Of a stretch of DNA of 64,000 nt, positions 35,393 through 39,811 are shown piece by piece (positions within the stretch are counted from its first letter, which is position 1; each line of letters begins with the position of its first letter). The translations under genes were made by a program, and so were the position numbers. The notes beneath the pieces are model-generated. The model saw only the letters and a list, made by a program, of their open reading frames with translations, did no database searches and was not told where the DNA came from. Origin of the DNA: Desulfuromonadales bacterium (GTDB lineage Bacteria > Desulfobacterota > Desulfuromonadia > Desulfuromonadales > BM103); NCBI GenBank assembly GCA_030145205.1, contig JAQYVZ010000004.1:1-64000 (forward strand), written 5' to 3'.

Positions 35393-36511
35393 ATGAAGAC
35401 TGACGGATCCGTTTCTCAGGTTGCCATTCCAGAAGAGATCCTTCAGAGGATCGAATCGCGCGGCATTAACCGGCGCGATTTTATTAAGTTCTGTATGGCA
35501 ACAACGGCGGCGCTGGCTTTGCCGGTGACCTTTGTGCCGAAGGTGGCGCAAGCGCTTGAGGATAACCGCACCCCGGTGATCTGGCTTGAATTCCAGAGCT
35601 GCAGCGGCGATTCTGAGGCCTTTCTGCGGGCTAATCAGCCGACGGCCACAGAGCTCATCCTCGACCTGATCTCCCTCGAATATGCTGAGGTCGTTATGGC
35701 GGCCGCCGGCCACTTGGCGGAAGAGGCGAAGCACCAGGCTCTCGAAAAATATCACGGCAAGTACATCCTGATTGTTGAAGGTGCGATCCCGACCAAGGAT
35801 GACGGCGCCTATTGCACCATCGCCGGTCAGAGCGCCGTCGCCTCGCTGAAGCAGGCGGTGGCCGGTGCGGCAGCGACCATCGCCGTCGGTTCCTGCGCCA
35901 CCTCTGGCGGTCTTCCCGCCGCCGCGCCCAATCCCTCCGGGGCTGCGTCCGTATCCGAAATCGTTCCAGGTGCCACAGTCGTCAATCTGCCCGGTTGTCC
36001 GGTCAACGCCACCAACCTCACTGCGACCATTGTACATGTCCTGACTTTCGGCAAACTGCCCGCAACCGATCGGCTCGGCCGGCCGTTGTTTGCTTATGGC
36101 AAGCGGATTCATGACAACTGCGAGCGCCGCGGCCATTTCGACGCCGGTCAGTATGCGGAAACCTTTGGCGACGAGGCCCATCGCAAAGGGTACTGCCTCT
36201 ATAAATTGGGCTGCAAGGGGCCGGAGACCTTCCACAACTGCCCGACCGTGCGTTACAACGAAGGTGTCTCCTGGCCGGTCATGGCGGGACATGGCTGCAT
36301 CGGCTGCTCGGAACCTGGTTTCTGGGACACCATGAGCCCCTTCTACCGCCGTTTGCCGAAGGTCCCAGGTTTTGGCATCGAGGATACCGCCGACAAGATC
36401 GGCATCGGCCTGGCGGCGGCAACTGCAGCAGCCTTCGCCGTACATGGGGTAGCCAGCTGCTTCAGAAAAGGGAACCCCAAGGACGAATCCAAGGTGATCA
36501 AGGAGGACTAA
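35393..36511 (+). CDS. hyaA: [NiFe] hydrogenase small subunit, Tat-exported
   Basis: A 372-residue subunit carrying the Fe-S relay. The N-terminus has a Tat motif (NRRDFIKF, residues 26-33) and hydrophobic stretch; a C-terminal membrane helix (about 335-357) anchors it. Distal cluster ligands: H240, C243, C268, C274. Medial: C283, C302, C305. Proximal ligands are C70, C168 and C202, but the position normally held by the second Cys (CTGC) is Asp, D73 (SCSGDSE); the codon is GAT. A 3Cys-1Asp proximal cluster is known from the actinobacterial-type enzyme of Ralstonia eutropha. First gene of a hyaABCD-like operon, four bases before the large subunit. Confidence 0.95.
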   Translation: MKTDGSVSQVAIPEEILQRIESRGINRRDFIKFCMATTAALALPVTFVPKVAQALEDNRTPVIWLEFQSCSGDSEAFLRANQPTATELILDLISLEYAEVVMAAAGHLAEEAKHQALEKYHGKYILIVEGAIPTKDDGAYCTIAGQSAVASLKQAVAGAAATIAVGSCATSGGLPAAAPNPSGAASVSEIVPGATVVNLPGCPVNATNLTATIVHVLTFGKLPATDRLGRPLFAYGKRIHDNCERRGHFDAGQYAETFGDEAHRKGYCLYKLGCKGPETFHNCPTVRYNEGVSWPVMAGHGCIGCSEPGFWDTMSPFYRRLPKVPGFGIEDTADKIGIGLAAATAAAFAVHGVASCFRKGNPKDESKVIKED

Positions 36512-39382: not shown

Positions 39383-39811
39383 GTGGGCAGATACGGGTGG
39401 TTCCGAGTGATTGCGGGCGGATTGTTGTGCCTGTTTGCCTGTCTGTCAGGTTGCGACAGGTCCGCATCAGACTATCCGTCGCAGCCAATACCGACCGGTT
39501 TGCTTGATGATGCCGCTCAACTGGCAGCGGGCCGCCAGCTGTTTCTCGAAAAGTGTGCCACCTGTCATGGCCGGCCGGATGAAGGGCGTTCTGTCCGCGC
39601 TGGATTTTTCCAGCCACCAGCTCCAGATTTTACCGAAATGGCATACCGGCAGATCGATCCGTCGTACCTGTTCTGGCGGATAGAGACGGGTAAGACGGTT
39701 GAACCTTACCGCTCACAGGGGTCGGTGATGCCGGCTTGGGCAATGCACCTCTCCAAGCGGCAAATATGGCAGCTGGTCGCCTACCTGTACAGTCGCGCCC
39801 GTTCATGGTGA
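39383..39811 (+). CDS. Monohaem c-type cytochrome lipoprotein
   Basis: A 142-residue exported protein. The N-terminus is a lipoprotein signal with LSGC at the lipobox (Cys 24); one haem motif CATCH follows at about 57-61 and a distal Met is likely within SVMPAWAMHLS. The GTG start has only a weak ribosome binding site but gives the full signal. It lies ten bases after the protease gene, so it is probably the last hydrogenase-operon gene and may be an alternative electron acceptor or donor for the hydrogenase at the periplasmic face. That role is inference. Confidence 0.82.
   Translation: MGRYGWFRVIAGGLLCLFACLSGCDRSASDYPSQPIPTGLLDDAAQLAAGRQLFLEKCATCHGRPDEGRSVRAGFFQPPAPDFTEMAYRQIDPSYLFWRIETGKTVEPYRSQGSVMPAWAMHLSKRQIWQLVAYLYSRARSW

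Follow-up and report, generated by a model that had tools for sequence, protein, structure and literature searches.

Introduction

The closest described relatives of the enzyme studied here are the group 1f [NiFe] hydrogenases, for which replacement of the second Cys ligand of the proximal Fe-S cluster is already on record. For Roseiflexus, Geobacter and Frankia, Mohammadi et al. 2017 noted Asn or Asp at this position of the group 1f enzyme (PMC5364354). Table 1 of Yonemoto et al. 2014, in which each entry represents multiple members, gives a Cys-to-Asp change at proximal position 2 for 'G. metalloreducens' (Geobacter metallireducens), and engineered C81D and C81N variants of the Alteromonas macleodii enzyme, altered at the same position, stay active (PMC4070099). 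In Deferribacter autotrophicus, HyoS, HyoL, HyoE and a protease are encoded in one cluster of HydDB class 1f, a group that the authors of that work called polyphyletic and poorly studied. Geobacter sulfurreducens has two periplasmic enzymes of the broad type, namely Hya (GSU0120-0123) and Hyb, the latter with HybA and HybB.

Other groups offer further points of comparison. In group 1h (HofK/HofG of Cupriavidus necator), Asp stands at the same aligned position, a likeness of sequence position, and PMC7174314 cites this Asp as coordinating the proximal [4Fe4S] cluster. In group 2a (Huc; cyanobacterial HupS), the second proximal Cys is also replaced, by Asn. Groups 1c (Hyd-2/Hyb) and 1d (MBH/Hyd-1) have the fold, the medial and distal ligands and the Tat signal in common with our enzyme, but 1c has four proximal Cys and 1d has six Cys with a [4Fe-3S] cluster. 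Here we compare these systems with a hydrogenase locus in a 64,000-nucleotide stretch of Desulfuromonadales DNA (the window), in which a first-pass annotation had pointed out Asp in place of a proximal Cys.

The small subunit and its proximal motif

Table 1. Hydrogenase locus in the window.
Feature	Position	Strand	Basis
Small subunit (hyaS-like) of [NiFe] hydrogenase, 372 aa, with Tat signal and anchor at the C-terminus	35393..36511	+	TIGR00391, TIGR01409, PF01058, PF14720
C70-S-G-D73 proximal-cluster motif, Asp replacing second Cys	35600..35611	+	reading frame and alignment
[NiFe]-hydrogenase large subunit, 570 aa	36515..38227	+	PF00374, 784 bits; tree
Hydrogenase cytochrome b subunit, 217 aa	38243..38896	+	TIGR02125, 159.3 bits vs 121.5
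HupD/HyaD-family maturation endopeptidase, 159 aa	38893..39372	+	TIGR00140, 159.5 bits vs 151.8
Monohaem cytochrome c (CATCH), lipoprotein-like signal	39383..39811	+	PF13442

In the profile search, the small subunit matched TIGR00391 with 470 bits against a cut-off of 179.5. Its E-values against small subunits of solved group 1 enzymes went down to about 1e-98. It carries the twin-arginine signal RRDFIK (TIGR01409, 21.0 bits against a cut-off of 16.7) and ends in a hydrophobic segment followed by basic residues. Codons 70-73 read tgc agc ggc gat, that is, C70, S71, G72 and D73. The protein was aligned with Hyd-1 and Hyd-2 of E. coli and with HoxK and HofK of C. necator. In Hyd-1, Hyd-2 and HoxK (MBH), the residue facing D73 without a gap was the second cysteine of the proximal CxxC motif; in HofK (group 1h; CDGDS) it was the Asp. 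Because this alignment to solved chains is gap-free, we take the position of D73 as settled. The HofK record itself is annotated 'HypE'; we took it as HofK from its place before the large subunit, from its alignment and from its length of 351 aa, the same as that of PDB 5aa5.

The other ligand positions were all found. C168 and C202 are the remaining proximal ones, the distal set is complete (H240, C243, C268, C274), and all medial positions are present (C283, P295, C302, C305). The cysteine pair that group 1d adds for its proximal [4Fe-3S] cluster is missing, with Gly in both places (G72, G173). The first-pass annotation had listed the gat-encoded Asp for Cys, its likeness to the group 1h Asp, the proximal set C70, D73, C168 and C202, intact distal and medial ligands, a Tat signal, a C-terminal anchor and a cytochrome b partner (TIGR02125 match, Table 1); its observation is right in all details tested.

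It had also considered that another Cys might take the fourth place, for which the alignment offered no candidate. Comparing the conserved cysteines of Asp and Cys enzymes, we saw no substitute fourth-ligand Cys gained by the Asp clade. The conserved non-ligand cysteines of that clade are C34 and C141 (91%), and we rejected both as the fourth ligand: C34 lies inside the Tat signal, and C141 is almost equally common in four-Cys enzymes (kept in 85% of the Cys type). A covariation scan against Asp/Asn returned position 73 alone, which is little informative as the groups were defined by that column.

Conservation of residue 73

The proximal motif was then aligned across the clade, as the annotation had proposed. 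Residue 73 is Asp at 105 of 111 fetched loci, Asn at five and Cys at one, the loci coming from two collections that in some cases include the same gene twice. The sole Cys belongs to L002, a distant paralog that the window's own genome encodes as its second small subunit. In a set of 167 distinct small subunits, which spans all groups gathered and includes distant ones on purpose, the counts were 103 Asp, 34 Cys and 30 Asn. Close relatives have Asp nearly throughout, with Asn in a few Geobacter copies. Since the same residue recurs throughout the relatives, Asp73 is a fixed, conserved trait of the lineage and no base error, with Asn in other members of group 1f.

A sequencing error, or a decayed gene that has lost a ligand, would also explain an isolated Asp. 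We found no support for this reading, which is exceedingly improbable: the Asp is shared by about a hundred loci in independent assemblies, and the operon is intact. We rejected it, as the conservation of the residue refutes it. The annotation's statement that the GAT codon is unambiguous likewise holds; the same Asp recurs across several phyla, in genomes independent of one another, which rules out an artefact.

Besides the enzyme studied here, the window's own genome encodes a second hydrogenase (L002:91-2430, contig C62), which has four proximal Cys. Solved [NiFeSe] small subunits are the nearest in sequence to its small subunit; the ORF of its large subunit stops directly after DPCIACAIH, without a C-terminal extension. 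Elsewhere, two Asp-type small-subunit genes lie about 3 kb apart (L217; genome G131, contig C11), probably as a duplication. In G189, a genome of the same class, a second small subunit of group 1f-like type (L139) reads CCGNIE: the ligand position is Asn, and residue 71 is an additional Cys.

Phylogenetic placement

Tree placement of both subunits had been proposed in the annotation as well, and each fell into a clade of good support together with enzymes of Geobacter and Deferribacterota, represented by rows other than the reference genes GSU0120-0123 and FHQ18_02875-02890 themselves. The small-subunit tree, built from 77 sequences with the motif columns left out, placed the window protein inside a clade of 47 rows (support 99/98) from Desulfuromonadales, Geobacter, Deferribacterota, Nitrospirota and many Chloroflexota, which the Hyb/Hyd-2 (group 1c) clade adjoins. 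In the large-subunit tree it belongs to a clade of 12 rows (98/99), and the wider group 1f does not come out as a single clade there.

Both kinship and architecture set the protein apart from group 1h, as the annotation had held. The HofK small subunit is about 27% identical, lacks a Tat signal and a C-terminal anchor and is distant in the tree. Group 1h membership was rejected on these grounds: the window protein has the Tat signal, the anchor and the cytochrome b, and lies far from 1h in the trees. The group 2a small subunit is about 28% identical and falls in another clade. Both 1h, with Asp, and 2a, with Asn, lie at a great distance in the tree; the non-Cys state there is therefore separate or ancient.

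Within the 47-row clade, residue 73 is Asp in 28 rows, Asn in 15 and Cys in four. Three of the Cys rows (L133, L148, L149) form one Chloroflexota branch with a shared DCAG context, and the fourth (L129) sits on a long branch of uncertain placement. Over the whole 77-row tree, whose root is arbitrary, Cys and non-Cys states are separated by at least five changes, to which we assign no direction. One could imagine that the proximal ligand switched among Cys, Asn and Asp several times in one periplasmic group, tuning the relay potential or the oxygen response to the lifestyle of the host, with the four-Cys Chloroflexota sub-branch nested in it; we think this scenario quite unlikely.

Three group 1f-like Chloroflexota small subunits (L198, L199, L200) have the ordinary Cys (CAGCTE) at the second proximal position and are nested close to enzymes with Asn or Asp. 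A Cys copy and an Asn copy occur together in one genome (G118). In a further Chloroflexota genome (G365), Cys (CDGCS) replaces the 1h Asp, yet the tree groups this sequence (L193) with group 1h.

Assignment to group 1f

Very probably, the window encodes an ordinary group 1f enzyme of the Geobacter Hya type, Tat-exported, membrane-anchored and H2-oxidising, with a proximal [4Fe-4S] cluster most likely ligated by D73; the label 1f follows the tree neighbours and the literature. D73 shows the group trait of a second proximal residue that is Asn or Asp (PMC5364354), and the Tat signal, the anchor, the cytochrome b and a HupD-type protease were all found in a single operon. Geobacter Hya and Deferribacter HyoSLE share this operon, the Tat signal, the anchor and the Asp/Asn. 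No tested feature separates the window enzyme from group 1f; adjoining cytochrome c and PEPCK genes are a property of its close relatives only. In the tree, the four-Cys copies from the genomes searched, which are 53-55% identical, fall together with E. coli Hyd-2 (L127, L128 and L141 with L115), so the Asp/Asn copies would correspond to Hya.

The annotation had suggested a distinct clade in anaerobes, possibly oxygen-tolerant or with a shifted catalytic bias. The clade is indeed mostly anaerobic, but it is not new: it is already group 1f. The annotation had itself allowed for an earlier description of the clade with this ligand set, and such a description exists, since Yonemoto et al. 2014 (PMC4070099, Table 1) and Mohammadi et al. 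2017 (PMC5364354) both report the ligand change. The group and the substitution are known, and the substitution is the widespread normal state of group 1f.

Ligation of the proximal cluster

We infer the type of the cluster, its ligation by Asp, the electron path, its direction and the physiological role as follows. As expected from the family, H2 would be oxidised at the periplasmic face. Electrons would run from the proximal through the medial to the distal Fe-S cluster, on to cytochrome b and from there into the quinone pool, probably menaquinone. The proximal [4Fe-4S] cluster would be held by C70, C168, C202 and the carboxylate of D73, as in the group 1h enzyme. By this analogy, D73 as the fourth ligand is the likeliest arrangement. 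In the literature searched, we found no group 1f enzyme with a measured proximal cluster, and the term '3Cys1Asp' gave no match.

Alternatively, D73 might be non-ligating, and three cysteines would then hold a [3Fe-4S] cluster of the kind reported for group 2a Huc. This would raise the relay potential and favour H2 oxidation. Three [3Fe-4S] clusters are reported for Huc, the nature of the fourth coordinating residue being part of the basis for that assignment (PMC10017518); Asn occupies this position in group 2a-like rows and in many 1f rows, and artificial substitution in PsaC can yield a 3Fe4S cluster (PMC4070099). However, an Asp-coordinated [4Fe4S] cluster is reported for group 1h, which carries Asp at this position too (PMC7174314), and intact 4Fe4S clusters were demonstrated in a small subunit whose ligands are unusual (PMC4070099). 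We prefer the Asp-ligated [4Fe-4S] cluster because the homologous residue of group 1h is Asp too, and consider the [3Fe-4S] cluster unlikely.

Oxygen response

Might the Asp confer oxygen tolerance or insensitivity, as proposed for group 1h, with Hya serving in oxidative-stress defence? HydDB names group 1f 'oxygen-protecting', possibly through electron supply against reactive oxygen species, but states that the role is unresolved. According to PMC10582990, Tremblay and Lovley 2012 connected Hya and Hyb with oxidative stress in G. sulfurreducens; however, the enzymes implicated in this defence thus include Hyb, which, judged by its relatives in the tree, would have four proximal Cys. Aerobic H2 consumption by some 1f bacteria is described in the literature, while other authors propose that Hya produces H2 from excess reductant. 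For group 1h, PMC7174314 links the Asp to coping with oxygen, but also indicates that the isolated enzyme of M. fumariolicum was seemingly impeded by O2 without H2. Altogether we find a role of the Asp in oxygen tolerance somewhat doubtful. Since opinion on Hya is split between oxidative-stress defence and H2 production, oxygen tolerance should not be claimed for the window enzyme. Among near relatives, Asp, Asn and Cys all occur at this single ligand position, a natural series that can be used to ask how the fourth proximal ligand acts in [NiFe] hydrogenases.

Gene neighbourhood

The large subunit carries the motifs L1 (RFCGVCTTVH) and L2 (DPCLACAVH), the latter followed by a C-terminal extension. 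The gene order small subunit, large subunit, cytochrome b, protease is kept in relatives: among the 80 with longer flanks, 79 showed the large subunit, 73 the cytochrome b and 65 the protease, counts from which distant copies may be missing and in which some contigs end early. A cytochrome c gene follows the operon in 28 of the 80, closer relatives only, mostly together with a PEPCK gene. In the window, the cytochrome c gene lies directly after the protease gene, and its product is possibly an electron partner of the hydrogenase.
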